A stretch of DNA of 64,000 nucleotides from Pseudomonadota bacterium (GTDB lineage: Bacteria; Desulfobacterota; Desulfobacteria; Desulfobacterales; JAHIVH01): positions 16,266-80,265 of the forward strand of contig JAHIVH010000120.1 of the NCBI GenBank assembly GCA_018816735.1. The letters are read 5' to 3'. Shown here in pieces: positions 3,361 through 18,782 of the stretch. The notes under the pieces were generated by a model. That model had not been told where the DNA came from. It made no database searches and was given only the letters and a program-made list of their open reading frames with translations. Position numbers and translations under genes: made by a program. Within the stretch, counting starts at the first letter, position 1; each line of letters opens with the position of its first letter.

Positions 3361-4845
3361 TTATCCTGTAGCAACTGCTGTGATAGGCATTCCCATTAAT
3401 GGCCAGATAACAAGCACAAAAATACCTGTGACAACAAGGAGAAGAATGCTTGCCGGAATACCGTACAAGAAAAATTCTCCAGGTGTAAACTGTTTTGAAT
3501 CATACGCAATGGCATTTGGCGCAGCACCTACAAGCAGAAGGAAGGGCATACCTGCTGCAACCAGGGATGCGAATAAAATCACTTCCTGCGCAACTCCCAG
3601 ATACGGACAAAGGAGCAATGCAACCGGTAGAACGATGGCAATTGCCGCCACGTTCATGATAAAGTTGGTCATCATAAGTACAAAAAAGGTGATGGCAATA
3701 ACAAATATAAACCAGTGGGCATTCTGGAAGAGCGTAATGAAATTTACCGCCATCCATTTGGCTGCGCCAGTGTCGTAGAGACAGATACCAATACTCATTG
3801 CACCTGCGAAAAGCAGAATGATATTCCAGGGAATGGCTTCAAGATCATCAAGATCAAGAATGTTTACGATAAAGAAAAGAATCGTTGAGACCAGGATAAC
3901 CGCTGTTTTATGGAACGGTTTTAAAATCGGGAAAAACTGCCTTGAGGCAAGAAAGAAAATACATGCGCCGATGATAATGGCTGCTATAATTTCCTGTTTG
4001 GATATGGGCCCCTGTTCTTCAGCCAGTTTCTTCGCTTTTTCCCTCAAACCGGGAATAACCTTTTTTTCAGGTTTCAGCATAACCATGAACAAGCCCCAGA
4101 GGAGAAATACCATTGTCCATCCAATGGGGGCCATGTAATAGGACAGCTCGAAAAAGGAGACGGTTTTTCCGGCCACTTCATTGAAAAAACCCACGGCAAC
4201 AGCACCACGGGCAGCCCCGAGAAGTGTGATGATACTTCCGGCACCTGCCACATAAGCCATTCCGATAAAAAGGCCTTTTCCGAATTTGGTGGGTTTGTTG
4301 CCTTCACCATAAAGCTCATTAACGACAAGGAGCAAGGGGTATATCGTGGCAGCAACCGCTGTGTGGGCCATAATGTGGGTCAGGAGTGCGGTCACTACAA
4401 AGCACCCCAGGTAGATCATACTTGTTCGCTCGCCCACAATATTCAGCATTTTATAGGCCAGGCGTTGTGTCAAGCCTGTTTTGGTGAATACGAGTCCGAT
4501 GACAATGGAACCAAAAATAAACATAACGGATGGGTCCATAAAATCATGGAAAGCATCTTCTGCTGATCGAATCAGGAAAAGTACTTGCAGGACCCCAATC
4601 AGGATACTTGTAACCCCTATGGGGACAACTTCGAACACCCACCATATACCTGCCAGGCAGAAAACAGCAATCGCCCCCTTTGCCTGGGGCGTGAGGGAAA
4701 ACTTTTCACCCATGGGGTCCACAGCATCTCCCCATTGCGGTGAATAATAAATAAGTGCAAAGAGGAAAATTCCCAAAAACATAAAACCAAATCTTTTCCA
4801 GTCTATTCCGGATTCAGTTGATATTGATAACGCATCTGTAGTCAT
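3361..4845 (-). CDS. SLC13/DASS-family anion (dicarboxylate or sulfate) permease
   Basis: Integral membrane transporter of 494 residues of the divalent anion:Na+ symporter family, which carries C4-dicarboxylates, citrate or sulfate. The characteristic early motif around GIWWVFEVVPIGVTSILIGVL and repeated hydrophobic segments (about 11-12 helices) are visible, with a second half containing NFIMNVAAIAIVLPVALLL typical of the family's paired transport motifs. I set the start at the ATG at 4845, preceded by AGGAG with good spacing, rather than the track's upstream start at 4896, which would extend into the intergenic space. It follows a receiver gene by 44 bases and is probably cotranscribed with it. 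The substrate is uncertain: sulfate uptake would fit a sulfate reducer, but this is inference. Confidence 0.88.
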   Translation of the reverse strand: MTTDALSISTESGIDWKRFGFMFLGIFLFALIYYSPQWGDAVDPMGEKFSLTPQAKGAIAVFCLAGIWWVFEVVPIGVTSILIGVLQVLFLIRSAEDAFHDFMDPSVMFIFGSIVIGLVFTKTGLTQRLAYKMLNIVGERTSMIYLGCFVVTALLTHIMAHTAVAATIYPLLLVVNELYGEGNKPTKFGKGLFIGMAYVAGAGSIITLLGAARGAVAVGFFNEVAGKTVSFFELSYYMAPIGWTMVFLLWGLFMVMLKPEKKVIPGLREKAKKLAEEQGPISKQEIIAAIIIGACIFFLASRQFFPILKPFHKTAVILVSTILFFIVNILDLDDLEAIPWNIILLFAGAMSIGICLYDTGAAKWMAVNFITLFQNAHWFIFVIAITFFVLMMTNFIMNVAAIAIVLPVALLLCPYLGVAQEVILFASLVAAGMPFLLLVGAAPNAIAYDSKQFTPGEFFLYGIPASILLLVVTGIFVLVIWPLMGMPITAVATG

Positions 4846-4889: not shown

Positions 4890-5318
4890 TTACCAACCTT
4901 TATGCGCCACAATTTTTGAAATTTCAGCCTGACGAATTCGCTCATCGTGCTCTGCCTTTATCGTTTTTGCCGCATGTATTTTTTCTGCCAGATCATCCGC
5001 AGACGCAGGCTTTAATAAAAAGTCATACGCTCCCAGTTTCATTCCTTCTATGGCATTTTCAACTGTTGCCGCCCCTGTCAGCATGATGACCTGTAGGAGC
5101 GGATTAATGTCCTTGATCTGCCTCAGGGCCTCAGTCCCTGTCATTTCAGGCATCATCACGTCAAGAACGATAACATCGAAGTCGACTTTACCAATGATTT
5201 CAAGTGCTTTTTTGCCTGAATAGGCTATGGTCACATTGAAATCCCTGATTTTGAGCCGCTCCCCCATTGCATCGACAAAATCTTTTTCATCATCAACTAG
5301 TAAAACTTTTGTTTTCAT
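4890..5318 (-). CDS. Single-domain response regulator (CheY-like receiver)
   Basis: Stand-alone receiver of 142 residues with acidic pocket DDE (9-11), phospho-acceptor D53, T81 and K103, plus a short helical C-terminal tail rich in charged residues, and no output domain. The start is placed at the second ATG (5318), which sits 5 bases after GGAGG. The track start would put that Shine-Dalgarno inside the gene. It lies directly upstream of the SLC13 permease and downstream of a degenerate kinase-like gene and another receiver. It probably acts in a phosphorelay or binds a partner protein. A direct effect on the permease is conceivable, but nothing in the sequence proves it. Confidence 0.88.
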   Translation of the reverse strand: MKTKVLLVDDEKDFVDAMGERLKIRDFNVTIAYSGKKALEIIGKVDFDVIVLDVMMPEMTGTEALRQIKDINPLLQVIMLTGAATVENAIEGMKLGAYDFLLKPASADDLAEKIHAAKTIKAEHDERIRQAEISKIVAHKGW

Positions 5319-5555
5319 CTGATCCTCCATTTAATTTTTTTATTTATTCTGTCGGAGGCTTTAAACGGATCTTGTTTTAAAGCTCCGGCTCTTATCGCAA
5401 TTCATTGAGAATAAATGGACTATCATATGGATTTATAGAAAACAATATGGAACTGATTGATGGTGGAAAATGTGCACACCTGACCGGAGAGTTTGCACTT
5501 CCTTTTAATCAAAATTCAGGTAGGCAGGGGATGGTTGAACCGGAAATTTTTATCA

Positions 5556-6212
5556 TCAGGTATTGAAACGTAAAATGATACCATGGGTATCCTTGTCTGC
5601 AGTGGCGCATCCATTGATCCTTTTTAAGGTGTCTTGAAGGCAGGCCCACTGTTCTGAGACTTGTATTCTGTTTGGCAGATCCGCATCCGGGGATTTATCC
5701 TTGCAGATGATTTTTACTTCAACCGTCTGATCTGATTTTTCCGGTGTAATTTGCATGCTGCTTCCGGATGAAAGCTGGCTCATCAAGGTGTCTATCGCAG
5801 ATAAAAGGGCAATCTCAAATTTGACCGCACTTGTTTTGAGGGTTGCCGGAACATCCGGTTTGTCCACGTGAATAGTTATATTGCAATTTTTTAATTTTCG
5901 ATGGATCAGTTTGATAATCATGTGGCTTGTTTGAAAAATATCCACATCCTTTTCATCATGATCCGGCGTGTGGGCGAATTCATTGAGGCTTGACGTCAGT
6001 TCCGATCCTCTTACGGTTTGACCCTTGATGGTGGAAAGGCATTTTTGAAATTTTTCAATGAACGGGAGCTCAGCGCCTTTATTCATAAGAAGAATATCCT
6101 CCATGAGCCCTCCGGTTTCCTTGATAATGGCAAAGATATTCTGAAGGTCATGGGTAACGCCTGCAGTGACCTTACCAAAAAAACGGGTTTCATCGGATAT
6201 TTTTTCTGTCAC
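5556..6212 (-). CDS. Degenerate histidine-kinase-like protein with intact H-box (Spo0B-like?)
   Basis: Cytosolic protein of 218 residues with no membrane segment. The N-terminal third looks like a HisKA-type helical hairpin with an H-box-like GVTHDLQN (H21). The C-terminal part has the length and pattern of a HATPase_c fold but lacks the ATP-binding boxes: there is no N-box asparagine, the G1 position reads CKDKSPDADLP instead of DxGxG, and no GxGLGL is present. It may therefore be a phosphotransfer protein like Spo0B rather than a kinase. It is flanked on the same strand by two single-domain receivers (14 bases downstream of one, 237 bases upstream of the other), the natural donors and acceptors of such a relay. 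Retained weak ATP binding cannot be excluded without a structure model. Confidence 0.75.
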   Translation of the reverse strand: MTEKISDETRFFGKVTAGVTHDLQNIFAIIKETGGLMEDILLMNKGAELPFIEKFQKCLSTIKGQTVRGSELTSSLNEFAHTPDHDEKDVDIFQTSHMIIKLIHRKLKNCNITIHVDKPDVPATLKTSAVKFEIALLSAIDTLMSQLSSGSSMQITPEKSDQTVEVKIICKDKSPDADLPNRIQVSEQWACLQDTLKRINGCATADKDTHGIILRFNT

Positions 6213-6226
6213 GGGGCATCTCCCTT

Positions 6227-6592
6227 TTATTTGTGTATGGCACCTAAGACTTTTTCAATGAATTCATCAATTTTCAGCGGTTTTATCAGATAATCATGCG
6301 CACCCATTTTTTTGCCTTCTTCACCATCTTTTGTCGAGCCCTGACCTGTTAAAAGGATCACCGGCAGATCTTTTTTGATTTTTTTAATGCTTTTTAATGT
6401 TTCAATGCCGCTTAAACCCGGCATTTTCAAATCAAGTATCACCACATCAAACTCTTTATCCTTCACCAGCTTAATTCCTTTTTCGCCATCACTTGCCAGT
6501 TCAGTTTCAAAGCCTCTTATTTCAAGCCTTTCCGCAAGTGTTTCCGAAAAATCTGTCTCATCATCTATCAGTAATATTCTGGTTCCTTTCAT
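6227..6592 (-). CDS. Single-domain response regulator (CheY-like receiver)
   Basis: Receiver domain of 121 residues with DDE (10-12), phospho-acceptor D54, T82 and K104, and no output domain. It is the first gene of a minus-strand set: receiver, kinase-like protein, receiver, SLC13 permease. Its sequence is close to the second receiver of the cluster (shared pattern LLIDDE..F...L.ERLEIR.F), suggesting duplication. A Shine-Dalgarno-like GGAG (GATCTGAACATG context) is weak. A function as phosphoryl donor or sink in a relay through the kinase-like protein is inferred from neighbourhood. Confidence 0.87.
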   Translation of the reverse strand: MKGTRILLIDDETDFSETLAERLEIRGFETELASDGEKGIKLVKDKEFDVVILDLKMPGLSGIETLKSIKKIKKDLPVILLTGQGSTKDGEEGKKMGAHDYLIKPLKIDEFIEKVLGAIHK

Positions 6593-6922
6593 GTTCAGAT
6601 CTCCAATTTTTTTCTGGTATCCTTAATGATAAATATCTTGAAAAGGTGTGTTTTATTCCTATGCAATCTGATTCTAAACGATTTATTTCTGTAACATAAT
6701 GCAATCCTGTTGTACATTGATTTGTTTGAAAGAAAAAGAGTTGGCCAGACAGGCCATATATGGTAATTTATCGAATTTTATCGGCATATTGTATTTGCAC
6801 TGAGTCCGCGTTGATGCTATTGTGATAAGCAAATCAATTTCAACATGTGTTTTCAGAATTGGGTAAAACATGCAAGTCGCATAAGAAAAAAACGTTATTA
6901 CGGTAATTTATCAGGAAAGCCT
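6593..6922. other. Divergent intergenic region
   Basis: About 330 bases between the divergently transcribed receiver and the EIIA gene. It must hold promoters for both directions, but I could not assign convincing -35/-10 boxes. A short inverted sequence TGGCC AGACA GGCCA lies near 6742-6756. The ORF track extends the EIIA frame into this region, but without a ribosome-binding site. Confidence 0.4.
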
Positions 6923-7393
6923 ATGAGAATATGGAAACTGATTGAAACAAAAGATATTTTTTTAAACATGACGATTCCTGACAAGGATGCGATCATTCGC
7001 TATATAGCAGAAACCTGCAAAAACCATGGCATTGTTGCGGATCAGGAATTGCTTTATCAAGGCCTTCAGCAGCGGGAACAGACCATGAGCACCGGTATCG
7101 GGAACGGAATTGCCATTCCCCATACGACCAATCCGGAAGCCAGCCAACCAACGGTGATATTTATTCATCTAAAGAAACCTGTTGATTTCGAATCGATCGA
7201 TAACCGCCCTGTGGATATTATCGTCGCGATTGTTATACCAGATGAACAAATCAACCTGCATCTTCAGATACTGGCCCGCATTTCAAGACTGTGCAGCAAA
7301 CCGGATTTTCTTGAATCCATAAGATGTGCCAACAGTCCGGAATCTCTCCATGATATCATCAGGGAAATGGAAGAAAAGCTGGTTAATTATTAG
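6923..7393 (+). CDS. PTS EIIA (PtsN/fructose type) domain protein
   Basis: EIIA domain of PTS family 2 (mannitol/fructose/Ntr), 156 residues. The phosphorylatable histidine is in the conserved context IGNGIAIPHTT, and the helical C-terminus (LQILARISRLCSKPDFLESIR) is typical. No EIIB or EIIC is nearby, so it is a regulatory EIIA like PtsN, taking phosphate from NPr/EINtr-type donors encoded elsewhere. The start is set at ATG 6923, after AGGAAAG; the 26 residues upstream in the track are basic and lack a Shine-Dalgarno. The next gene encodes a PII-like protein 23 bases on, followed convergently by a cation/proton antiporter. EIIA-Ntr proteins are known to control K+ transport, which suits this setting. 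Confidence 0.88.
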   Translation: MRIWKLIETKDIFLNMTIPDKDAIIRYIAETCKNHGIVADQELLYQGLQQREQTMSTGIGNGIAIPHTTNPEASQPTVIFIHLKKPVDFESIDNRPVDIIVAIVIPDEQINLHLQILARISRLCSKPDFLESIRCANSPESLHDIIREMEEKLVNY

Positions 7394-7416
7394 AAACTGA
7401 AAAGTGGAAAATAGTC

Positions 7417-7752
7417 GTGTACCTATTGTTTACAGTGCTAAATAATGAAGACCTTTTAGATACCATCCTTACCGGATGGATCGACATGGGCATTACGGAT
7501 TCAACAGTAATAGAAACCACCGATGCTCTCCAGCTTATCAGTCATCATATTCCAATTTTTGCGGGATTCAGAATTCTTACAAGCGGTGGTGTTCGGCACA
7601 ACAAAACGCTTATGACTGTTATTGACGATGAATTCCTTGTTGACGGTGCCATAGATTATCTGAAAAAGGTATGCCAGGAAACGGGGAAGACCAATCAGGG
7701 AAAATATTTTGTTGTACCGCTTTCAAAATCAGGTCTTTTAGGACGGCTGTGA
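7417..7752 (+). CDS. Small PII-like (GlnB-superfamily) protein
   Basis: A 111-residue protein beginning at GTG. The pattern MYLLFTVLNNEDLLDTILTGW with a later GGVRHNKTLMTVIDDE and a terminal VVPLSKSGLL fits the ferredoxin-like fold of PII-related small proteins, in which a sensor trimer binds nucleotides. It lacks the canonical PII T-loop tyrosine and signature sequences, so it is not GlnB (a true GlnB lies at 25072). It follows the EIIA gene closely and ends one base before the convergent antiporter stop. By analogy with PII-like proteins next to transporters it could gate the antiporter, but this is an inference. Fold assignment by eye is moderate. Confidence 0.7.
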   Translation: MYLLFTVLNNEDLLDTILTGWIDMGITDSTVIETTDALQLISHHIPIFAGFRILTSGGVRHNKTLMTVIDDEFLVDGAIDYLKKVCQETGKTNQGKYFVVPLSKSGLLGRL

Positions 7753-7753
7753 G

Positions 7754-8965
7754 TCAGGCATCAGACCGGATTGCCTGTTCTCTGAACAGGCGGTGAATCA
7801 GGTTGGTACTGATTAGGTCATTGATGACAATGGTAAAAAGAGCTACCGATACAATTGTTTGGGATATCCCCCAGGGAAACCCCTGTTGAAAATCAAAAAT
7901 AATGGCCAGAGACAGTCCGCCCTGATCAAGCAGGCCGAACCCAATCGATTTCGGCTGGGTTTTAAATTTGGGTATGATCCATGTGATCAGGATGCCGCCT
8001 GAAAACTTCGCTGCCATACGGAAAAAAAAGTAACCTGAAGCCATGAGCAATACCCATGAGTTAATGATGGTCCAGCTTGCACCTAAAAATACACAGAGCA
8101 GAAGGTATAAGGGTTTTTCGATACTCATGAGCAGGTTGAAAATTTTTTCTTTTTCCATGGAAATGTTGACCAGAGCGAAACCGAATATGAAATTGATGAC
8201 AAGTGGTGAAAAATGAAGCATGGACGCTGCCCCACTGGTAAGGATGGCCATGCCAACGATGGCGATTGACAGCTCATCGGTATTCAGGCGCTGGGCCAGA
8301 AAAAAATTATAAAGAAGCAGCAAAAAAATCAATGCGGCAACAATGATCGTCAATTCAACTGTGAATCGGGATGTCATGAAGACATCTGCCACAATCGGAT
8401 GTCTGAAAAAATAGGCAAAACTCAAAATGGAAAGCGCAATGCCCGAGTCGATGCTGGACATGAATCTTAAAAGCCTTATCATATCGTGACGTCTTGAAAT
8501 CGTATCTCTTGCCAAAAGCGCTATCCCTGTGGGGGCGCTGCATACTGCAGCAGCAGCCATCATCAGTGTGATGGCCGGCAGTTTCTGATTATTATCCCTG
8601 ATAAGAAAAGAGAGCATGAAAAACACGGCAGGGATGACATAAATGAATGTCAGTGCCGCCTCAATGAAAGTGGCCTGAAAAAAATGGCGGGGAAATCGCC
8701 TGAGTTTGGCCATTTCAAACTGAAAACCAAAAAGAAGGCCAATCCATCCCAGAACAAGTGCCATGAGCGGTTCAAGGCCTTTTAAGGTGTTGATGTCGAG
8801 AAGGTTCAGAAAATTGGGGCCTAAAAGTAACCCCAGGAAAAGAAATTCGATGCCTGTAAGATAAAATTTTCTGGAAAAAAGCGGCATTTTAAATCCCCTG
8901 AACGTCAGGTGATAACCACTCATGGCCAGAAAAATAATGATCAGGAATACAAAGAAAAATTTCAT
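7754..8965 (-). CDS. CPA2-type cation:proton antiporter without RCK domain
   Basis: Membrane protein of 403 residues with about 11-12 hydrophobic helices and the Na+/H+-exchanger (Kef/NhaA-like) pattern, including an early GIEFLFLGLLLGPNFL and GLLDQGGLSLAIIFDF near the end. There is no TrkA-N/RCK domain, unlike the KefB-like protein at 29090, so regulation must come from another polypeptide. It is convergent with, and one base from, a PII-like gene preceded by an EIIA gene, and both are candidate regulators. Residues M1-V6 are followed by a first helix, which fits an N-out or signal-anchor start. Ion specificity (Na+ or K+) is not readable. Confidence 0.85.
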   Translation of the reverse strand: MKFFFVFLIIIFLAMSGYHLTFRGFKMPLFSRKFYLTGIEFLFLGLLLGPNFLNLLDINTLKGLEPLMALVLGWIGLLFGFQFEMAKLRRFPRHFFQATFIEAALTFIYVIPAVFFMLSFLIRDNNQKLPAITLMMAAAAVCSAPTGIALLARDTISRRHDMIRLLRFMSSIDSGIALSILSFAYFFRHPIVADVFMTSRFTVELTIIVAALIFLLLLYNFFLAQRLNTDELSIAIVGMAILTSGAASMLHFSPLVINFIFGFALVNISMEKEKIFNLLMSIEKPLYLLLCVFLGASWTIINSWVLLMASGYFFFRMAAKFSGGILITWIIPKFKTQPKSIGFGLLDQGGLSLAIIFDFQQGFPWGISQTIVSVALFTIVINDLISTNLIHRLFREQAIRSDA

Positions 8966-8984
8966 ATATGTCTTTCTTTGAAGG

Positions 8985-10832
8985 TCAGAGCATTTTTATC
9001 ACTTCATCCAGAAAACGGCTCTGCCTGGAATACTGACCCCTTCTGAATTCTGCACAGCAAAGATAGAGGTACATCTCCGCCCGTGTCATGGCAACATACA
9101 TCAGTCGTCTTTCTTCCTGAAGTTCTGATTCGTTTTCCATGGACCGCCAGTGCGGGAAGATGTTTTCCTCACATCCCGTCACAAATACGACGGTATATTC
9201 AAGGCCTTTGCTTGCATGGACGGTTGAAAGGCTGACCCCGGTTTCTTTTTCTTCTTCGTCCTCTTTATCCTCTTTTATCAGTGATGCATCTTCCAGGTAA
9301 TCGCCAATATTGTCGTGAAGAGACGCTGAATAAATCAGTTGTTCAAGATTTTCCATTCTGCTGGTGAAATCCATTTTATCTTCTTTTGAAGCGGTTTTGA
9401 GGTACTGCTCATAATTGAAAGTATAAAGGATTTCATTTATGGCCTGCTTGGGCGGCATATCCCTCATCATGTCAAGATTTTCAATGAGAAATTTCAATTC
9501 CTTATGGACTTTTGGGGTAAGAATCCGTTCTCCGATAATTTTACGGACAGCATCCTGAAGGCTCATATCCCCTGTCCGGACACTTTTGATTCTGGAAAGC
9601 ATGGATGGCCCCACCCCTCTCCTCGGGACATTGATGATACGCTCAAAGGCCACATCATCCTTTGGAAAGAAAGCTGCTGAAAGATAGCAGTTCACATCAA
9701 TGACTTCCTTTCTTTCAAAAAATCCCTTTGCACCTTTCATGATATAAGGAACCTTGTAAGCCCTGAATGTTTTTTCAAACGACAGGGACAGGGCCTTGGT
9801 CCGGTAAATGACCGCCATGTTTTCATAAGGAATACCCATGGTGTTCAACGAAATGGCTTTTCTGGCCACAAAAGATGCTTCTTCAGATTCGTTATAGAAG
9901 GAATAATGCTCGATCACGCCCCCTTTTTTTCCTGAAAAACATTTTTTTTTCATCCGCTGACTGTTGTGATCGATCAGCGCATTTGCCACCTGGACAATTT
10001 CATCTGCGGATCTGTAGTTTTCTTCGAGTCTGAAAATTCGGGCGTTTTCAAATGTTTCTTCAAATGACAGGAAGTGACTGACATTGCTGCCCCTGAAACC
10101 ATATACCGCCTGCCAGTCGTCACCCACACAGAACAGGTTCCCGTTTTTCAGGAAAAGCCGTGTGAGTTCTTCCTGAAGGTTGTTTGTGTCCTGGTATTCA
10201 TCCACCAGAATGTATTGAAAATAATCCTTGTAGTGTTTTCGGATGTCTTCATGATCCCGGAGAATGTTTCGGGTCAGAAGAAGAATATTGTCAAAATCCA
10301 CGGCATTCTGTTCTTTCAGCATGGATTCATAGTGATGGAATATATCCTTGATCATAAAGCGCGTGGCACGGACATGATTATCGAAATACGTATCTGGATC
10401 TCCGGAATTTTTTGCCTTTGAAATATCCGAGATAATGGCGCCTGTGTATTTTTTGTCAATATCGAGATTGGCCATAATCTCTTTGATGATTTTGGTCTGG
10501 TGATATTGGCTCAAGATTTGTAAAGGGTGGGAAAGTCCTGCAAGCTGACAATGGGATTTAAGGATTTTGAAACAGGCGCCATGATATGTTCTGACCCAGG
10601 GAAAATGATTGAGAGACATACGGGTCAAGTCAACGAGTCGGTTTCTCATTTCTTCTGCTGCTTTGTTTGTAAACGTAATGGCCAGTATCCGTTCAGGGTC
10701 AAACCCTTTTGACAGAAGATAGGTTATTTTTGCTGTAAGTGTTCGGGTTTTTCCTGAACCCGCACCTGCCACCACAAGCGCAGGGGTACCCATATGTTCT
10801 ACGGCAATTTTCTGTTGAGGGGAAAGTTGCAT
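8985..10832 (-). CDS. UvrD/Rep-family ATP-dependent DNA helicase (superfamily 1A)
   Basis: 3'-5' DNA helicase of 615 residues, somewhat shorter than Rep/PcrA (about 670-720). Motifs in order: Q-motif LSPQQKIAVEH, Walker A AGAGSGKTRT, Ia TFTNKAAEEM, Walker B DEYQDTN, III GDDWQAVYGFRG, IV VIYRTK, V STVHASKGLEY and VI EERRLMYVAMTRA. All catalytic residues are present. Motif III has W where DQS is usual. Likely role: unwinding during repair, restart of stalled forks or removal of protein roadblocks. It lies alone, transcribed towards the antiporter gene and 19 bases from its start, so the two might be cotranscribed. The C-terminal Tudor-like tail seen in PcrA is missing, which favours a Rep-like protein. 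Confidence 0.93.
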   Translation of the reverse strand: MQLSPQQKIAVEHMGTPALVVAGAGSGKTRTLTAKITYLLSKGFDPERILAITFTNKAAEEMRNRLVDLTRMSLNHFPWVRTYHGACFKILKSHCQLAGLSHPLQILSQYHQTKIIKEIMANLDIDKKYTGAIISDISKAKNSGDPDTYFDNHVRATRFMIKDIFHHYESMLKEQNAVDFDNILLLTRNILRDHEDIRKHYKDYFQYILVDEYQDTNNLQEELTRLFLKNGNLFCVGDDWQAVYGFRGSNVSHFLSFEETFENARIFRLEENYRSADEIVQVANALIDHNSQRMKKKCFSGKKGGVIEHYSFYNESEEASFVARKAISLNTMGIPYENMAVIYRTKALSLSFEKTFRAYKVPYIMKGAKGFFERKEVIDVNCYLSAAFFPKDDVAFERIINVPRRGVGPSMLSRIKSVRTGDMSLQDAVRKIIGERILTPKVHKELKFLIENLDMMRDMPPKQAINEILYTFNYEQYLKTASKEDKMDFTSRMENLEQLIYSASLHDNIGDYLEDASLIKEDKEDEEEKETGVSLSTVHASKGLEYTVVFVTGCEENIFPHWRSMENESELQEERRLMYVAMTRAEMYLYLCCAEFRRGQYSRQSRFLDEVIKML

Positions 10833-11100
10833 GATATTCCTTTGATGATTACACGTCTAAAAGTTACCTAAAAAAAGCTCTGCCTTTTATAACACCATCT
10901 TTTAATTTTGCATCTAATTTTTAAAAATGGAAGTGTTGAATGAGGGAATTGATTGGTATAAAATATAATAATATTAAATAATTATATTACGTATGCACAG
11001 ATATTAAAACATAACCACAATTACGTTTCACCTTCAACCGGATGAGGTTTTTAAAAACGTATATTATAGGGTCAGCTATATCGGAATGACGTCCAGAGGG
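10833..11100. other. AT-rich intergenic region upstream of the helicase
   Basis: Together with the hairpin at 11101-11132 and the bases after it, this gap of about 320 bases separates the helicase start from the cold-shock gene. It is AT-rich and probably contains the helicase promoter. No coding frame or RNA gene is recognised. Confidence 0.4.
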
Positions 11101-11132
11101 AGGCATTTCGTAAAACGGTTTACGAAATGCCT
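11101..11132. terminator. Perfect 14-bp hairpin after the cold-shock gene
   Basis: AGGCATTTCGTAAA / TTTACGAAATGCCT with a 4-base loop. On the plus strand it is followed by GTTTTCTT. On the minus strand, the direction of the cold-shock gene ending at 11155, there is an A-tract before it but no U-tract after it. It most likely ends the cold-shock transcript or works in both directions. Confidence 0.65.
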
Positions 11133-11154
11133 GTTTTCTTCTGTGCCAAAAAAT

Positions 11155-11358
11155 TTAAACTTTCAAGACCTTTTTGGCAGCAGATCCTCTCTCATTGCTT
11201 TCAATTTCAAAATTTACTTTGTCACCTTCTGCGAGTGTCCTGAATCCAGGCATGTCAATGGATGAATAGTGAACAAAAATATCTCCGTTACCATCTTCCT
11301 GTTCGATGAACCCATACCCTTTTTTGTCGCTAAACCATTTTACTGTACCTTCTGCCAA
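11155..11358 (-). CDS. Cold-shock domain protein (CspA family), TTG start
   Basis: Single cold-shock domain of 67 residues that binds single-stranded RNA/DNA and melts RNA structure. RNP1 (KGYGFI) and RNP2 (DIFVHYS) are intact, and the N-terminus LAEGTVKWFSDKKG is the family's usual MAEGTVKWF. The true start is almost certainly the TTG at 11358, which sits 8 bases after a strong GGAGG. The track's ATG at 11391 would add an 11-residue leader (MINVFKKGGDV) and read through the Shine-Dalgarno. A long AT-rich untranslated region lies upstream, as is common for csp genes whose leaders act as RNA thermosensors; no specific structure is proven here. Confidence 0.92.
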   Translation of the reverse strand: MAEGTVKWFSDKKGYGFIEQEDGNGDIFVHYSSIDMPGFRTLAEGDKVNFEIESNERGSAAKKVLKV

Positions 11359-12037
11359 AACGTCTCCTCCTTTTTTAAAAACATTAATCATACTGTCCGC
11401 AATCGAAACAGAATAAATTTGACCTTTCCAATCACATCTTGCCAGAGTTACAGGCTTAAAAAATAAACGGAAATAATTTTACGGATGTGTGTTTAGAAAA
11501 TGGTCATACAATTTTCTTCCGATCACGGTTGCCCTTTTAAAAAAGAGCAAGCACACGACTACCCAAAAACCTTGCACGTATTTATGTCATGCAGGAAAAA
11601 TGATCTAATTTAAATACAGAATACAGATATATGATATTCATTTATTGTTGAAACAAGATATTTACAAAAAATATATGAACGCTTAGCGTCCGGCAATACT
11701 TACTGCTGTTTGGATCGATACAGGAGTGAGAACTTCAGCCATCGGTGTTTAAACCCGCTTCAAAATATTTTATTTGCCCCGGATATCAATCAGGTACAGC
11801 AGTAAGTTTTGTTATTATGAGAGATATCATTTATTTTGAAGCTGCATTTTTAGTATGTAATTTCATCAAGATACGTTCTTTAATACCTGTAAAAAATCAA
11901 TTTAAATTTGCATAACATAGATTGATAGTTCAGATCAATAGTTTTACAATTTTTTTTTTATATCGGTCAGCGTTGATTTAATCAGTTATCTGATTTCTCC
12001 AGGCTGTTTTTCCTGATCAATGAGATTTCACTTGTCC
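11359..12037. other. Long intergenic region with a 12-base inverted repeat
   Basis: About 680 AT-rich bases between the cold-shock gene and uppP, both on the minus strand. It should contain the csp promoter and leader. A perfect inverted repeat ACTTACTGCTGT / ACAGCAGTAAGT lies at 11698-11709 and 11796-11807. No open frame of note was found on either strand. Confidence 0.5.
11698..11807. repeat. 12-bp perfect inverted repeat with 86-base spacer
   Basis: Arms ACTTACTGCTGT and ACAGCAGTAAGT; the right arm is followed by TTTTGTTATT on the plus strand. It could be a long-loop hairpin of a non-coding transcript, a decayed mobile element end pair, or chance. No coding frame occupies it. Confidence 0.45.
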
Positions 12038-12868
12038 TTAAAAAAATACACCTGAAAAAACAGCCAAAATGCCAATGGCCCAGCAGTAAAAGGCAAACAA
12101 GTGGAGTCGGCCTTTTTTGACGATCTTAAGCAGAACGCGCAGGGCCATATATCCGGTGATAAAAGCTGTTGCTGTTCCCACTGCCGTTAAACTGTTTATG
12201 TTAAAATCCGTTGAAAACCCGTCGATGAGTCCAATAAATTCAGCTGCCATGATTGCAGGCATACTTAAAAGGAATGAGTATCTGGCGGCTGTTTCTCGTT
12301 CAAGTCCCATAAAAAGCCCGGCTGCTATGGTTGAACCTGACCGCGAAATACCGGGCATGACGGCAAGTCCTTGAATGGTGCCGATGATAAACGCCTTTTT
12401 GGGTGAAACATCCTTGATCAGCAAATGGGTATCTGTTCGTTTTCTGGTAACCCATAATAATATACCGGTAATAATCAACATACATCCGACGACAGTTATG
12501 GATGAGAAAATTGTATCTGCATAATTTTTCAGGAATAAGCCAATAACCCCTGTGGGTATGGAGCCCAACACGATCAGATAGAACAGTCTGGCATCCGGAT
12601 CGGTTGCCAGGATATCAGACGTTTTTTCGTTTTTAAAAACAGACACCATCAACTTGAAAAATGCATTGATCATGCCCTTTATTTCCTTTAGGTAAATGAG
12701 GGCAACGGCAAGAAGCGTCCCCACATGGAGGCTGATATCGAAAAAGAGCTGCGGTTCACTTAATCCGAACAGATGTTGAAACAGGACCAGGTGGCCGGAG
12801 CTGCTCACCGGCAGAAATTCCGTGAGCCCTTGAATAATCCCTAAAATAACAGCCTGATACATTTCCAT
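12038..12868 (-). CDS. uppP: Undecaprenyl-diphosphatase UppP (BacA)
   Basis: Inner-membrane phosphatase that recycles the lipid carrier undecaprenyl pyrophosphate to undecaprenyl phosphate for peptidoglycan and other envelope polymers. 276 residues, the usual length, with about 8 helices. Both catalytic signatures are present: GLTEFLPVSSSGH near the N-terminus and PGISRSGSTIAAG in the second half. The ATG at 12868 is preceded by AAGGAAAT. It is the last gene of a run dapL, moeA, moeA-PBP, uppP, 14 bases after the preceding stop, so it is probably cotranscribed even though the functions differ. Confidence 0.96.
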   Translation of the reverse strand: MEMYQAVILGIIQGLTEFLPVSSSGHLVLFQHLFGLSEPQLFFDISLHVGTLLAVALIYLKEIKGMINAFFKLMVSVFKNEKTSDILATDPDARLFYLIVLGSIPTGVIGLFLKNYADTIFSSITVVGCMLIITGILLWVTRKRTDTHLLIKDVSPKKAFIIGTIQGLAVMPGISRSGSTIAAGLFMGLERETAARYSFLLSMPAIMAAEFIGLIDGFSTDFNINSLTAVGTATAFITGYMALRVLLKIVKKGRLHLFAFYCWAIGILAVFSGVFF

Positions 12869-12882
12869 TATCGCCGATTTCC

Positions 12883-14847
12883 TTAGAGTATAATGTTTCC
12901 GGTCATGTGCGTATGATATCCGCCAAGGGCATTTACGCGTGCTTTAAATCGTTTCGTATTTATGGTTTCAATCAGTTTTTGCATATTGGGAGAATTGAAA
13001 AATTCGCCCGGTATAACGAGATCATACTGTTCGGTCACAACCGGAATAAAATCAAGGTTAAGCGCCTTTGCCGCCGCATAGATCCCCAAGCCCACATCCA
13101 CCCTGCCTGAAAGCACCGAGACAGCTACGGACATATGCGTATATTCTTCATCGGCATAGCCGATAATCGTTTCCGGATCAATTCCAAGTTGGGAAAGCTT
13201 GAAATCGAGAAGGATTCGTGTTCCGGAGCCTGCCTGCCGGTTCATGAACCGGATATCTCCCCTTGACAAATCCTCGATGCCTTTGATCTGTTTCGGATTA
13301 TGTTTGGGGATGATAAGGCCCTGATCTCTCATGACCAGATGGACAACATTCACGTGGACATCCTTCAGGTATTTTTTGATATAGGTCACGTTGTAACTGC
13401 CGTCATCCGCATCAAGAAGGTGAGACCCGGCCAGATGGCATACACCTTTTTTTAAAGCTATCAAGCCCCCCATACTTCCCACATGACTGGATGAAAGGCT
13501 TATCCCTGCATCCCTTCCAAGCTGATCAGAAAGAATGTCCAGGGTATTGTCATGGCTGCCGGCGACCACAAGTGTTTTGCGGATAGAGGATGCCGTTTTC
13601 AAAAGCGTTGCCCGGACAGGTGTCTCTGCTGTTAACCCTTCCACGTGGTTGGGTATACGGATGATGCCATCTGCCTGCGTGATGCTTGTGATAAAACCCG
13701 CTCCTCTGGGAAGCGGCGTGCATACGGTTTTATCGCCCACATGCCCGATTTTTATGCGCAAAAATTCTTCGACGCCGAGTTTGGATGGAATTTTCCGCGT
13801 AGGCGTCACGTCGATTTCAGGACGTTCCTGTTCCGGTTGTCCGGTCATGTTTAATAAAAGAGGTTCGGCGAACTGTTCAAAGGAAATGATGGCGGAAACC
13901 GGATATCCGGGAATACCGATAACGGGGATATGATTGATGTCGCCAAGGATAACCGGTTTTCCCGGCATGATGGTCACGCCATGGACGAGAATTTCACCCA
14001 GTTCCCCGATAACGTGGCTGGCAAAATCTTCTGATCCGGCGGAGGAACCGCCGATGATCAGAATCATATCCACGTCTTTTTTAGTAAATCCATCTACCGA
14101 TTTTTTAATGGTGTCAAGATCGTCTCCAACAATTTTGATACGTTCATATTCCCCACCGGCAGACCGGATGAGCCCCCCCAGTACGTAAGAGTTGCTTTCA
14201 ATGACCTTCCCGGGTTTGAGATCTAAAAGGTGTTTGTCCGGGTGAAGGTCCAAAAAACCGTCGACCAGCTCCGAGCCTGTAGGAATGACCAATACTCTGG
14301 GCTTTTTGTAAACCGGGACGGCGAAAATGCCTCCGGAAAGAAGGGCCCCCAGACAATAAGACGTGATTTTGTGGTTGCTTGGAAAAAGGAGTTCTGTAGC
14401 CACTATGTCTTCGCCCATTTTCCGGATATGCTGCCAGGGAAAGGCCGGGGCCTCAATTCTTATGGTATCTCCGGATATGACCTGGATATGTTCTATCATG
14501 ATGACGGCATTGCAATTTTCCGGTATCATATGACCGGTATTGACATAGAATGCATCTTTGCCGATCAAGAGATCTTTCGGTCGGTTTTCACCGGCGCCAA
14601 ATGTTTGGGCGGCGTTTACAGCGATGCCATCCATGGCTGCAGCGTGAAAATGGGGAGATGAAATTTTTGCCGAAACCGGTTCTGATAAAATCCTTCCCAC
14701 GGCATCCGGAACAGGAAGCATTTCAGTATCACAAATTTTTTTATTTGAAAATCGATCAAAGAGAATTTGCCTTGCCTCTTCAAGAGATTTCATTTTCAAG
14801 TAGATATTTCTTTTTGGACTCATGGCGTGTGCCTTATTGTTTTTCAA
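12883..14847 (-). CDS. MoeA-like molybdotransferase fused to a PBP-like substrate-binding domain
   Basis: A 654-residue two-part protein. Residues about 15-420 are a MoeA domain, including MDGIAVNA, the PTGSEL loop and IIGGSSAGSEDF. In the E. coli homologue these bind molybdopterin-AMP for molybdate insertion. Residues about 425-650 form a periplasmic-binding-protein-like domain of the kind found in some MoeA and ModE-like proteins, with the motif NRQAGSGTRILLD and GLGIYAAA. It has no signal peptide, so it acts in the cytosol, perhaps sensing or delivering molybdate or tungstate. It overlaps the canonical moeA upstream by 4 bases. The paired arrangement is known in archaea and deltaproteobacteria that handle both Mo and W. 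Confidence 0.92.
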   Translation of the reverse strand: MKNNKAHAMSPKRNIYLKMKSLEEARQILFDRFSNKKICDTEMLPVPDAVGRILSEPVSAKISSPHFHAAAMDGIAVNAAQTFGAGENRPKDLLIGKDAFYVNTGHMIPENCNAVIMIEHIQVISGDTIRIEAPAFPWQHIRKMGEDIVATELLFPSNHKITSYCLGALLSGGIFAVPVYKKPRVLVIPTGSELVDGFLDLHPDKHLLDLKPGKVIESNSYVLGGLIRSAGGEYERIKIVGDDLDTIKKSVDGFTKKDVDMILIIGGSSAGSEDFASHVIGELGEILVHGVTIMPGKPVILGDINHIPVIGIPGYPVSAIISFEQFAEPLLLNMTGQPEQERPEIDVTPTRKIPSKLGVEEFLRIKIGHVGDKTVCTPLPRGAGFITSITQADGIIRIPNHVEGLTAETPVRATLLKTASSIRKTLVVAGSHDNTLDILSDQLGRDAGISLSSSHVGSMGGLIALKKGVCHLAGSHLLDADDGSYNVTYIKKYLKDVHVNVVHLVMRDQGLIIPKHNPKQIKGIEDLSRGDIRFMNRQAGSGTRILLDFKLSQLGIDPETIIGYADEEYTHMSVAVSVLSGRVDVGLGIYAAAKALNLDFIPVVTEQYDLVIPGEFFNSPNMQKLIETINTKRFKARVNALGGYHTHMTGNIIL

Positions 14848-16076
14848 ACTAGTATGACCTGAACTTCGGTACCTTGTAACAGCCCTTCTTCATTCATCCC
14901 AACTTCGATCACACCGTCCGCCCGGATCATGGTGCTTATCAGGCCGGATTTGCCCAGAACAGGTTCTGCGTATGTGATGTTATCCCTGCGAACGAGTTTG
15001 ACCCGTGTATAATCTATCCTGCCCTGGGCAGATGAAATATTTCGCGTCAAAATGGCTTTTAAAGGAGGACCTTTTTGAAATGGATTTGAAATGCCTCGCA
15101 AATAGTCAAGACAAGGGCGGACGACGGTATTGAATACGATCATGGCAGATGTTACATGGCCGGGGATTCCCCAGATGAATTTATTTTCAGCCTTTGCCAG
15201 AATGGTCGGTTTTCCCGGGCTTATGGGGATGCCATGAACCAGGATGCTGGAATTTTTAAGGGCGGAGAGCGTCTCAATGGTTAAATCCCGTGTGCCCACA
15301 GAGCTTCCGCCTGAAATCAGGACCATGTCTGTTTCCTGGCATGCTTTTTCACATGCCTCAAAAAGGAGTTCGCGCTGGTCCCTGATAATGCCGTATGATT
15401 TGGGCGTACCGCCATATTTTTTCACAAGGCCCGACAGGGTGAAGGTATTCATATCCCGGATATATCCGCACGGCGGGATTTCGTTCACCGGGACCACTTC
15501 ATCTCCAGTCGAGATAATGCCGATCACCGGTTTCCGGTAAACCTGGACCGGATTATGCCCAAAAGCGGCAAGTGCGCCAGCTTCCTGCGGTCTTATCAAG
15601 GTCCCTTTTTCAAGAACGACCGTCCCTTTTCTGAAATCCTCACCTTTTTCAATAATGTTCTGGCCAGGGGCCATGCTTTTGAACGCTTCTACGGTCTCAT
15701 CATCGATGCTGTCCGTATGTTCGATCATAATGACGCTGTCTGCATTTTCAGGCAGCATGCCGCCTGTGGGAATTGGGGCGGCTTCTCCGGAACCGATCGA
15801 AAAATCCGGTTTCTCAGCCATGGAAACAGCGCCCTTAATGGTCAGGTAAGCAGGATTGCTTTCGCTTGCCCCGAATGTCGATGCAGCTTTGACCGCATAC
15901 CCATCCATGGTGGACCGGGAAAAGGGCGGCAGATCCATATCTGCTATAACATCAACGGCCAGAACCCTCCCTTGGGCACAAAAGAGATCAACCGGTTCCA
16001 TTTCTACCCGATCTGTCCCGGAAATCAGTTTCAGGACATCTTCAAGGGGGGTGACTTTAAAAAAATCTTTTATCAT
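14844..16076 (-). CDS. moeA: Molybdopterin molybdotransferase MoeA
   Basis: Inserts molybdate (or tungstate) into adenylated molybdopterin, the last step common to molybdenum cofactors. 410 residues, normal length. Visible signatures are RSTMDGYAVKA (about 54-64), STGDEVVPV (about 188), the GGSSVGTRD loop, SPGKPT and IPGHVTSAM. It overlaps the following MoeA-PBP gene by 4 bases (stop/start overlap) and begins 27 bases after dapL, so it is translationally coupled to its paralogue. Having two MoeA proteins side by side suggests different metals or different target enzymes. Confidence 0.95.
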   Translation of the reverse strand: MIKDFFKVTPLEDVLKLISGTDRVEMEPVDLFCAQGRVLAVDVIADMDLPPFSRSTMDGYAVKAASTFGASESNPAYLTIKGAVSMAEKPDFSIGSGEAAPIPTGGMLPENADSVIMIEHTDSIDDETVEAFKSMAPGQNIIEKGEDFRKGTVVLEKGTLIRPQEAGALAAFGHNPVQVYRKPVIGIISTGDEVVPVNEIPPCGYIRDMNTFTLSGLVKKYGGTPKSYGIIRDQRELLFEACEKACQETDMVLISGGSSVGTRDLTIETLSALKNSSILVHGIPISPGKPTILAKAENKFIWGIPGHVTSAMIVFNTVVRPCLDYLRGISNPFQKGPPLKAILTRNISSAQGRIDYTRVKLVRRDNITYAEPVLGKSGLISTMIRADGVIEVGMNEEGLLQGTEVQVILV

Positions 16077-16103
16077 AAGGGTTGTTTCGAATCATGCAGG
16101 CCA

Positions 16104-17327
16104 TCATTTCAGTGCTTTTCTGATTCGCTCCATGGCTCTTTTCACGTTTTCATAGCTGTTGAACGCACTGATCCGGATATAGCCCTGACCGCATTTCCCA
16201 AAACCCGCACCAGGAGTACAGACCACGCCTGCTTCTTTCAGGAGAAGATCAAAAAATGCCCAGGAATCTGTTTTGCCGTCTATCCAGATATACGGCGAAT
16301 TCTCGCCACCTGTCAGTTCATAGCCCATATCTGCAATTTCTTTTCTTATGAGCTGTGCATTTTTAAGGTAATAATCTGTCAGGCCTTTTACCTGTTTTTT
16401 TCCTTCCTCATTGTAAATCGCTTCTGCCGCTTTCTGAACCGGATATGAGACGCCGTTGAATTTTGTTGAATGTCTTCGGTTCCACAGGGCGTGGATCAGA
16501 TGGGCATTCCCCTTTGTATCCCAGGCCATGCAGGTTTTAGGCACAACCGTGTATGCGCATCGTGTGCCTGTGAAGCCGGCTGTCTTTGAGTAACTCCTGA
16601 ATTCAATGGCCACTTCGCGGGCCCCTTCAATCTCATATATCGATTTCGGCAAGTGTTCGTCCCGGATAAATGCCTCATAAGCTGCATCAAAAAGAATGAG
16701 CGCTTTTTCCTTTCGGGCATAATCCACCCAGGTTTTAAGCTGGTCTTTGGTAATTGTCGATCCGGTGGGATTATTGGGAAAACAGAGATAGATCAGATCG
16801 ACCGGCGTTTCCGGAAGTTCCGGAACAAAGCCGTTTTCCTTGGTGCTGTCCAGGTAAACGATATCCTCATATCGCCCGTCGCTGAAAAGGCCTGTCCGGC
16901 CTGCCATGACGTTGGTATCGAGGTATACCGGATACACCGGGTCGGGTATGGCAATTGTTATGTCGTTTGAAAAAATTTCCTGGATATTACCCGTATCGCA
17001 TTTCGCACCGTCGCTTACAAAAATTTCATCCGGAGAAATATCGGCGCCTCTTTTCTGAAAATCTTCCGCAGCTATTTTCTCCCTTAAAAACGCATATCCC
17101 TGTTCCGGACCATAGCCCCTGAATGTGGCATCTTCCGCCATTTCAGCCACACCTTTCCGAAACGCTTCTATACAGGCATCTGGGAGCGCTCTTGTGACGT
17201 CTCCAATACCCAGCTTGATCACTTCTTTGGTTGGATTGTCTTTCTGATATGCGGTCACGCGCTTGGCAATGTCCGAGAACAGGTATGATGCCTGAAGTTT
17301 TAAATAGTTTTCATTGATTTTGATCAT
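16104..17327 (-). CDS. dapL: LL-diaminopimelate aminotransferase DapL
   Basis: PLP-dependent aminotransferase that converts tetrahydrodipicolinate directly to LL-diaminopimelate in the shortened lysine/peptidoglycan pathway, found in plants, chlamydiae, cyanobacteria and many deltaproteobacteria. 407 residues, full length. The N-terminus ([17 protein letters not shown]) and [15 protein letters not shown] are diagnostic, and the Schiff-base lysine lies in [12 protein letters not shown]. It heads the minus-strand run with moeA, moeA-PBP and uppP. Aspartate kinase lysC, which feeds the same pathway, is also in this window (49971), but not linked. Confidence 0.95.
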
Positions 17328-17654
17328 GAATCTTCCTCTGTCAATTTAAAAATATGGACGCTTTTTAGCTCCTGATTGTTTACCTTACGGGTAATACTCG
17401 AAAATTCCAGTATGAGTCAAGAGGGGATTCTGTATATTCCACTCAGCCAAGTTCAATTGAAAGTCTTACCATTCGATTTTTGATAAAAAGTCACCATCAT
17501 CTTGGATGAAACTGCAGCAAGAATGGTTAAATGGACCTTGACATTAAATGTCATTCTCTATAATTATCCTTAGTAAAACAAGATTCTTATCCTTAGGTAA
17601 ATAAATATTAACTGAAACTGAAATCTGCATTTTACATGACGGTTGTCTAATAAT
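17328..17654. other. Divergent promoter region between dapL and the PfkB gene
   Basis: About 320 AT-rich bases upstream of two divergent genes. It should hold both promoters. TTGACA-like or TATAAT-like words are too scattered to call. No small gene or RNA was seen. Confidence 0.4.
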
Positions 17655-18782
17655 ATGAATCATGAACCCAAATCCCCATCTCCAATTATTACCATTGGAA
17701 GTGGAAATATTGAGCACGTTTTAGAACTTGACGGTGAAATACATCTGGGGCGAAAGCATATTGTAAAATCCCATGAATTTTTAGGTGGAAGCTGTATTAA
17801 TTATTCTATACGACTTATGTCAATGGGTGAAATCGTTTATCCGATTCCTTTTATCGGTAAAGATAAATATGGCCGAGAAATCCAGAAAAAGTTGATAAGC
17901 ATCGGAAATAAATATGACCGATCCTCTACATGCGAAAATTTTATAAATTCAGAAGATTTTTTTGTCCCAACCATTCAGACGCCTAAAGCAACGATAATGG
18001 TTCATAAAGGACAGCGAACTATTTTTTCGCAGGGCTTGACGCAAACCGGCGTATCAGTCGAACACATTGAAAAGCGCATTCGACGGTTGATTGAAAAGAT
18101 GCCAACCTGTTCGATCATGATCGGACATGTAACACCTGATATTGATGCCATGGCGCCAGGGGAAATCACAAAAAAAATAATCGATATATGTGATGATAGC
18201 CAACTCATTTATGCTAATTTGGGTAATGGGCAACTGGTTCACGGCGTGGATTTTTGGAAAAAAGATATGTGCCGTACCGATATCTTTCAGCTGAACATCG
18301 AAGAGATAAAACGATTTTTTTTGAAATCCGGCATGGATAATTCGCTCTACAACATTATCAAGTGGTTAAGAAAGAATTCCATTACAGCTGTCATCACATT
18401 GAATCGATTCGGTGCCGTTGGAACTTACAAAGACGGTCGCGATGGTATTGTTCTAGCATGGCCGCTTGATATCGGTGACATTATCGATCCGACAGGCGCG
18501 GGCGATGCCTTTGCTTCAGGGATGGTATCCTGCCTGAAAGGGAAAAAGTCATTTTCTTTTAATGAATTCGTATCTGCCATTGATATAGGACGATACTGGG
18601 CGTCTTATGCATGCAAAAGCCTTGGGGCATGCGCCGCCTGTCCGGATAAAAAGGCCATAGATGCATTTATCCAAAAACAAGCGCGATGCCATGATAACCT
18701 GATTATGGAAATCACAGAGGAAAACCATCCCAAACAGATCATGGATCTCATCGATAACGTGTATCAATTATCGATTTGTTAG
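17655..18782 (+). CDS. PfkB/ribokinase-family sugar kinase
   Basis: ATP-dependent carbohydrate kinase of about 375 residues. The first family signature appears as LGGSCINYSIRLMSMG, and the second, with the catalytic aspartate, as DPTGAGDAFASGM near residue 285. A C-terminal extension of about 60 residues with several cysteines (ACAACPDKK) goes beyond the core fold. I chose the ATG at 17655; the track's TTG, four codons upstream, has no better ribosome-binding site. It precedes a phosphomannomutase, a phosphohexomutase and a MYG1-like gene on the same strand, though 250 bases separate it from the next one. The sugar or nucleoside substrate is not readable. Confidence 0.88.
   Translation: MNHEPKSPSPIITIGSGNIEHVLELDGEIHLGRKHIVKSHEFLGGSCINYSIRLMSMGEIVYPIPFIGKDKYGREIQKKLISIGNKYDRSSTCENFINSEDFFVPTIQTPKATIMVHKGQRTIFSQGLTQTGVSVEHIEKRIRRLIEKMPTCSIMIGHVTPDIDAMAPGEITKKIIDICDDSQLIYANLGNGQLVHGVDFWKKDMCRTDIFQLNIEEIKRFFLKSGMDNSLYNIIKWLRKNSITAVITLNRFGAVGTYKDGRDGIVLAWPLDIGDIIDPTGAGDAFASGMVSCLKGKKSFSFNEFVSAIDIGRYWASYACKSLGACAACPDKKAIDAFIQKQARCHDNLIMEITEENHPKQIMDLIDNVYQLSIC

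Follow-up and report, generated by a model that had tools for sequence, protein, structure and literature searches.

A kinase-derived protein without ATP boxes, set between two stand-alone receivers, points to a probable phosphorelay beside anion transporters of sulfate reducers

The window, a 64,000-nucleotide stretch of contig JAHIVH010000120.1 (assembly GCA_018816735.1), carries a unit of four genes on its minus strand. These encode a stand-alone receiver, REC1 (6227..6592; 121 amino acids; PF00072, 102.6 bits); a kinase-derived protein, HPT (5556..6212; 218 amino acids, GTG start at 6212); a second stand-alone receiver, REC2 (4890..5318; 142 amino acids; PF00072, 102.3 bits); and an anion permease of the DASS/SLC13 type (3361..4845; ~494 amino acids, with an ATG at 4845 preceded by a Shine-Dalgarno sequence). 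This arrangement agrees with a preliminary description of the locus, which placed two stand-alone receivers on either side of a kinase-like protein and an SLC13 permease downstream. Indeed, the permease scored above the cut-offs of both PF00939 (160.8 versus 27 bits) and TIGR00785, the DASS model (200.6 versus 198.6 bits). The intergenic gaps are 14 bp between REC1 and HPT, 237 bp between HPT and REC2, and 44 bp between REC2 and the permease gene. REC2 more likely starts at the second ATG, at 5318, than at 5330 as given in the open reading frame list, since the former follows GGAGG at a distance of 5 nt and yields 142 amino acids, the commonest length in the REC2 family. The HPT-REC2 spacer contains no known RNA element and no more promoter-like sites than expected by chance, and the folding z-score of positions 5331-5555, -1.24, was not significant. 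A sigma-54 promoter near the unit was rejected on the basis of 39 near-consensus matches in the window versus 37.2 expected; the stretch from 5619 to 7015, which includes the spacer upstream of REC1, contained none of these.

The four-gene unit encodes no DNA-binding regulator, as had been described, but this statement does not extend to its surroundings: a set that includes a REC-sigma-54 regulator lies approximately 470 bp past the permease on the other strand. This set (2-2892) comprises a CHASE3/HAMP kinase, the full-length gene of which starts ahead of position 1, a lipoprotein-like protein with a coiled coil, and the regulator, and resembles the QseE-QseG-QseF arrangement. It is unrelated to the unit and, on the opposite strand, cuts the permease off from its CBS-domain partner (C67:14897-15472) and a hexapeptide-repeat partner (C67:13472-14893), both just beyond the window edge. 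The NtrC/kinase pair of this set was rejected as the regulator of the relay. Specifically, the regulator is ~38% identical to the DASS-adjacent sigma-54 regulators of relatives and the kinase matches those of relatives poorly (22% to the DASS-adjacent one in locus L170), so the pair is no clear counterpart of theirs. Upstream of REC1, positions 6845-8965 hold a divergent pair encoding a PTS IIA/PtsN-like protein (PF00359, 132 bits) and a 111-amino acid protein that matches PII weakly (E = 0.03). The 403-amino acid multi-pass membrane protein that follows on the other strand had no significant match in Pfam or NCBIfam. In Desulfospira, too, a PTS IIA gene follows the DASS cluster.

Direct reading of HPT revealed an H-box motif, T20-H21-D22-L23-Q24-N25, in which His21 (codon 6150..6152, minus strand) is the putative phospho-acceptor and is invariant in 75 of 75 relatives. 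In Pfam searches, the protein matched HisKA only weakly (14.8 bits versus a cut-off of 26.9) and no ATPase domain was matched. The losses were evaluated by aligning 75 HPT sequences with 117 full kinases encoded nearby. The H-box histidine was present in 100% of both groups, whereas the N-box Asn was found in 0-1% of HPTs versus 100% of the kinases, the G1 Asp in 0% versus 100%, and the G2 glycines in 4-8% versus 100%. The F-box was deleted in all 75 HPTs; the ATP boxes were kept at 95-100% in the kinases. The acidic residue at H+1 and the Asn at H+4 were each present in 100% of the HPTs. Residues G13, H21, N25, G35, D39 and H81 were invariant in the family, and Q65, N77 and H81 were specific to it, being absent from the neighbouring kinases. 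The earlier observation that the window protein keeps THDLQN and has lost the N, G1 and G2 boxes thus holds across the family. HPT has the H-box of a functional histidine kinase and no intact N, G1, F or G2 box. Because the loss is shared by the whole family, it did not arise by chance, and the alignment identifies HPT as a conserved conversion of a kinase rather than an accident of sequencing or annotation.

The family appears to have no existing name. The window HPT matched no SPOB Pfam model at E ≤ 1, nor did the family table at E ≤ 0.1. For PF10090 (HPTransfase, the ChpT family), the window protein was unmatched and one of 58 members matched, at 1.7e-4. PF01627, the canonical monomeric HPt domain, matched neither the window protein nor the family. 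Across the phylum, a search with a threshold of E ≤ 1e-12 detected relatives in 57 of 395 genomes, mostly as stand-alone frames of ~220-260 amino acids, and 28 of 40 close relatives carried one. In a scan of named genomes, the window HPT alone retrieved no match from the contigs and the alignment of the whole family proved too divergent to search with; a nine-sequence subset was therefore used. This yielded 80 loci, 74 of them with a stand-alone copy and most in Desulfobacterota. Carriers included Desulfospira, Desulfocicer, Desulfamplus, Desulfosarcina, Desulfacinum, Desulforhabdus, Desulfoferrobacter and Desulfomonile MAGs; outside Desulfobacterota, there were one Nitrospirae MAG and one Riflebacteria MAG. 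The dsrA gene was present in 54 of 57 carriers versus 136 of 338 non-carriers, as raw counts that ignore kinship.

An AlphaFold2 model of HPT, built from the 75-sequence alignment, had a pLDDT of 92.7. In the model, DHp helices 7-43 and 52-80 form a hairpin, followed by a degenerate ATPase-like α/β domain at residues 88-217 in which a short helix, 179-185, replaces the ATP lid ahead of helix 187-198. No complete ATP site, which according to the preliminary description would have spoken against its reading, is present in this predicted fold. The model, with its DHp hairpin, degenerate ATPase-like domain, retained histidine and lost ATP site, thus resembles a pseudo-histidine kinase phosphotransferase. 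A Foldseek search with it found DHp-CA kinases. Among the 50 matches listed, ChpT (4fpp) had the highest TM-score (0.53/0.55) and the lowest rmsd (6.2), although ordinary kinases outranked it by E-value. That the TM-scores stayed near 0.5 is probably due to differences in hinge angle. Spo0B, to which the preliminary description had likened the protein, was not among the 50 matches listed. A profile search of PDB sequences retrieved the kinase cores of ThkA, ZraS and KinB and neither Spo0B nor ChpT, suggesting that the likeness of HPT to both is likely due to separate descent from kinases.

Both receivers have the complete acidic pocket, Asp, Thr and Lys of single-domain response regulators, and domain searches detected no output or DNA-binding domain in either. 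The active-site residues of REC1 are D10, D11, D54, T82 and K104. A tree of 191 receivers placed the window REC1 in a clade with 53 of the 56 receivers located immediately upstream of HPT; the active sites were complete in 56 of 56 REC1 sequences, with one Ser for Thr. REC2 grouped with 35 downstream receivers that come last in their clusters and with three others, and D/D/D/T/K was present in 39 of 39 members of this clade. By this tree, REC1 and REC2 are orthologous to the two conserved receiver positions. The tree also rejected a recent duplication as the origin of the pair, which is about 40% identical outside helix 1. REC2 further possesses a conserved C-terminal tail, K.eHEeRIR.AEI...gW, predicted to extend helix 5 (residues 107-140; AlphaFold2 pLDDT 91.4). 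Helix 1, the docking helix, was more similar between REC1 and REC2 of one cluster than elsewhere (0.556 versus 0.418, n = 27). We did not take this as proving that docking is shared, because the difference is modest and the similarity in the window, 0.47, was no higher than that between REC1 and several other receivers of the genome.

The order of genes recurs in relatives. A kinase lies at most five genes upstream of HPT in 68 of 74 loci, a receiver immediately upstream in 56, and a stand-alone receiver at most five genes downstream in 64. A DASS, SulP or TauE gene was present in 39 of the 48 HPT loci of at least 12 kb, and none was recognised in the other nine. This association is not built in, as HPT was the sole basis for retrieving the loci; by comparison, the 6.5-Mb window genome has five DASS matches. 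The earlier question of whether the permease always accompanies the set was answered in the negative: SLC13 occurred in only 21 of the 48 long loci, with SulP in 12, TauE in 16, or no transporter in the others. The TauE association is less specific than those of the other transporters. In DASS-type clusters, the order is a dCache kinase (~575 amino acids), REC1, HPT, optionally a small protein and a degenerate receiver, REC2, a CBS protein and DASS. SulP-type clusters have SulP-STAS, a fusion of a cytidylate kinase-like domain and a receiver, the kinase, REC1, HPT and REC2. In TauE-type clusters, which represent a third transporter type for this relay, it is followed by TauE and a 142-amino acid protein; in L043 (11587-13660), for example, the relay precedes a TauE/SafE exporter, the 142-amino acid membrane-type protein and a CBS protein.

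Several accessory genes were observed in these neighbourhoods. Many relay clusters contain sigma-54 activators, of the PAS type or, beside DASS, of the REC type. In L109 (5511-5846), as in many clusters, the relay kinase is separated from a PAS-sigma-54 activator by a gene for a 111-amino acid Nitro_FeMo-Co (NifX-like) protein, possibly an extra regulatory input. The same locus (8875-9779) encodes a 121-amino acid protein without a Pfam match and a 180-amino acid receiver scoring 35.5 bits, barely above the cut-off, which recur in DASS-type clusters; some downstream receivers of such clusters lack the Asp or Lys. In L128 (6238-7464), a Cytidylate_kin2-like domain is fused to a C-terminal receiver beside SulP-STAS, as in many relatives, and SulP is preceded there by a further, free-standing Cytidylate_kin2 protein. 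The genome of L127 has a second cluster (5815-18028), with genes for two Cache kinases, for five receivers and for two DASS permeases that are divergent; it lacks HPT, and one receiver is fused to a complete HisKA-HATPase (387 amino acids).

In the window, the relay genes have no adjacent kinase; the divergent PTS IIA gene lies upstream instead. The window genome contains a single HPT copy. Of its 73 kinase matches, the best was an orthologue of the relay kinases at G000:C77:138588-140180 (41% identity over the full length, E = 9e-137), the next being at 34%. In a tree, the C77 kinase was nested among mostly SulP-type relay kinases with a support of 1.0. Its locus comprises a cytidylate kinase-like gene, SulP, a cytidylate kinase-receiver fusion and the kinase, that is, the SulP type minus REC1-HPT-REC2. 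In a genome of the same genus, an HPT 53% identical to that of the window lies directly upstream of these first three genes. Together, the gap at C77 and this placement suggest that the relay module was split into two loci. Judging from orthology and gene content, the C77 kinase is the likeliest donor for the window relay. Two kinases of contig C105 (33-34%), located beside other SLC13/DASS permeases, are alternative donors. The earlier idea of a distant kinase thus gains a concrete candidate, whose pairing with the relay is put forward as an inference.

Aligned with the dicarboxylate transporter VcINDY, the window permease has AHT and MNV in the substrate loops in place of SNT/SNT. The cluster permeases of relatives are 58-74% identical to it, except that of L158 (27%), and most share AHT/MNV. 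These motifs suggest no more than a substrate other than a dicarboxylate; the proposed substrate is a sulfur oxyanion, most likely sulfate.

We consider it probable that these proteins constitute a four-step phosphorelay, running through the kinase, REC1, His21 of HPT and REC2, that controls anion transport. The membrane dCache histidine kinase would sense a signal, autophosphorylate and hand the phosphate to Asp54 of REC1. From there, the phosphate would pass to His21 of a dimeric, ATP-blind HPT and then to Asp53 of REC2. As REC2 has no output domain, its output would occur by protein contact: with its long conserved C-terminal helix, it may act on the permease, the CBS-domain partner or a sigma-54 activator. 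In the window organism, the kinase would be supplied in trans from the C77 locus, beside the SulP sulfate permease. The receiver-histidine-receiver scheme proposed earlier is thus strengthened by the family-wide box loss with an invariant His, the predicted fold and the recurrent order of kinase, REC1, HPT and REC2. Because the relay recurs beside sulfur-compound transporters of many sulfate reducers, their transport is probably under phosphorelay control.

Desulfobacteraceae clusters of the same kind, containing DASS and SulP with Cache kinases, response regulators named as WalR-type, CBS proteins and TetR repressors, have been described (Sci Adv 2025, PMC11887813). There, sulfate was suggested as the common signal of the Cache kinases, and the published model is one of direct kinase-to-regulator transcriptional control, not a relay. 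The words 'phosphorelay' and 'receiver' do not occur in the main text of that article, and its main-text passages on the clusters do not mention a phosphotransferase. We found no phosphorelay for sulfate transport described in the open-access literature. The clusters are thus known; what appears to be new is the phosphotransferase family and the interpretation as a relay. If true, the relay would correct the published model. Under direct two-component control, the Cache kinase would phosphorylate regulators of DASS and SulP transcription, and the 218-amino acid protein would be incidental or an inert remnant. The kinase-to-regulator-to-promoter arrows drawn for both cluster types in the published model and the sigma-54 activators of many clusters are consistent with this, but no DNA-binding domain is present in the cluster receivers here. 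Moreover, an inert remnant would not be expected to retain six or seven residues without variation, His21 among them, and a near-constant length across 58-75 divergent copies. We therefore regard direct control as improbable.

Similarly unlikely is that HPT functions chiefly in reverse, setting the off state as a drain of phosphate from REC2 to REC1, a receiver phosphatase or a sequestering partner. In HisKA proteins, the H+1 acid and the H+4 Asn are linked to both kinase and phosphatase activity. All HPT copies keep both, and with His and the H+4 Asn retained, HPT could work in the reverse direction, as a sink for phosphate or as a phosphatase. PhyT not only transfers phosphate but also keeps its regulator inactive (PMC5898713). 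The window copy, with no kinase beside it, would also suit such a role, but the kinase close upstream in most related loci fits a forward relay. Finally, DivL (4q20, labelled 'tyrosine kinase' in the database) was among the top structural matches listed, with a TM-score of 0.52, but DivL has lost the phospho-accepting His that the HPT family keeps in 75 of 75 copies, making it very improbable that HPT is a DivL-like pseudokinase that carries no phosphate and reads phospho-REC1 or phospho-REC2 allosterically.

Within the four-step phosphorelay, we tentatively raise a further possibility, itself rather doubtful: that the terminal receiver-only protein directly tunes transport post-translationally, by acting on the permease, a CBS partner or a STAS domain, in three unrelated transporter families, and that one SulP-side Cache kinase also drives the window DASS in trans. 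Sulfate uptake is the first step of the energy metabolism of sulfate reducers, and to our knowledge little is known of how it is set at the molecular level. The recurring relay offers a testable route by which an external sensor could reach DASS, SulP and TauE transporters. Direct action of the last receiver on the transporter would make control rapid and post-translational; if the C77 kinase is the donor, a single sensor could serve a DASS and a SulP transporter alike.

In its proposed function, HPT is like Spo0B, ChpT and PhyT, but it belongs to none of their families, to which it adds an apparently independent conversion of a kinase to a phosphotransferase. With Spo0B of Bacillus sporulation, it shares the loss of the ATP boxes and the order of kinase, single-domain receiver, kinase-derived phosphotransferase and receiver; it differs in that its terminal receiver, REC2, has no DNA-binding domain. 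ChpT of Caulobacter (PF10090; 4fpp) is likewise derived from a histidine kinase, with a two-helix DHp, a degenerate Bergerat-fold domain and a retained His, and has been proposed to transfer phosphate between receivers, as we propose for HPT (PMC3433190). A short extra helix of ChpT, helix 4', is reported to close the pocket at the site of the ATP lid (PMC3433190), and helix 179-185 of HPT is comparable. HPT matches the ChpT fold overall, a similarity common to kinases in general. However, ChpT acts downstream of the hybrid kinase CckA, whereas HPT is encoded between stand-alone receivers, beside transporters and in a different phylum. In the Pak-SdrG-PhyT-PhyR pathway of the Sphingomonas stress response, transfer from kinase to single-domain response regulator to degenerate kinase to response regulator was shown in vitro (PMC5898713). 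PhyT is membrane-bound, includes a putative sensor domain and has PhyR as its end point, whereas HPT has no membrane or sensor region and its relay would end on a receiver-only protein.
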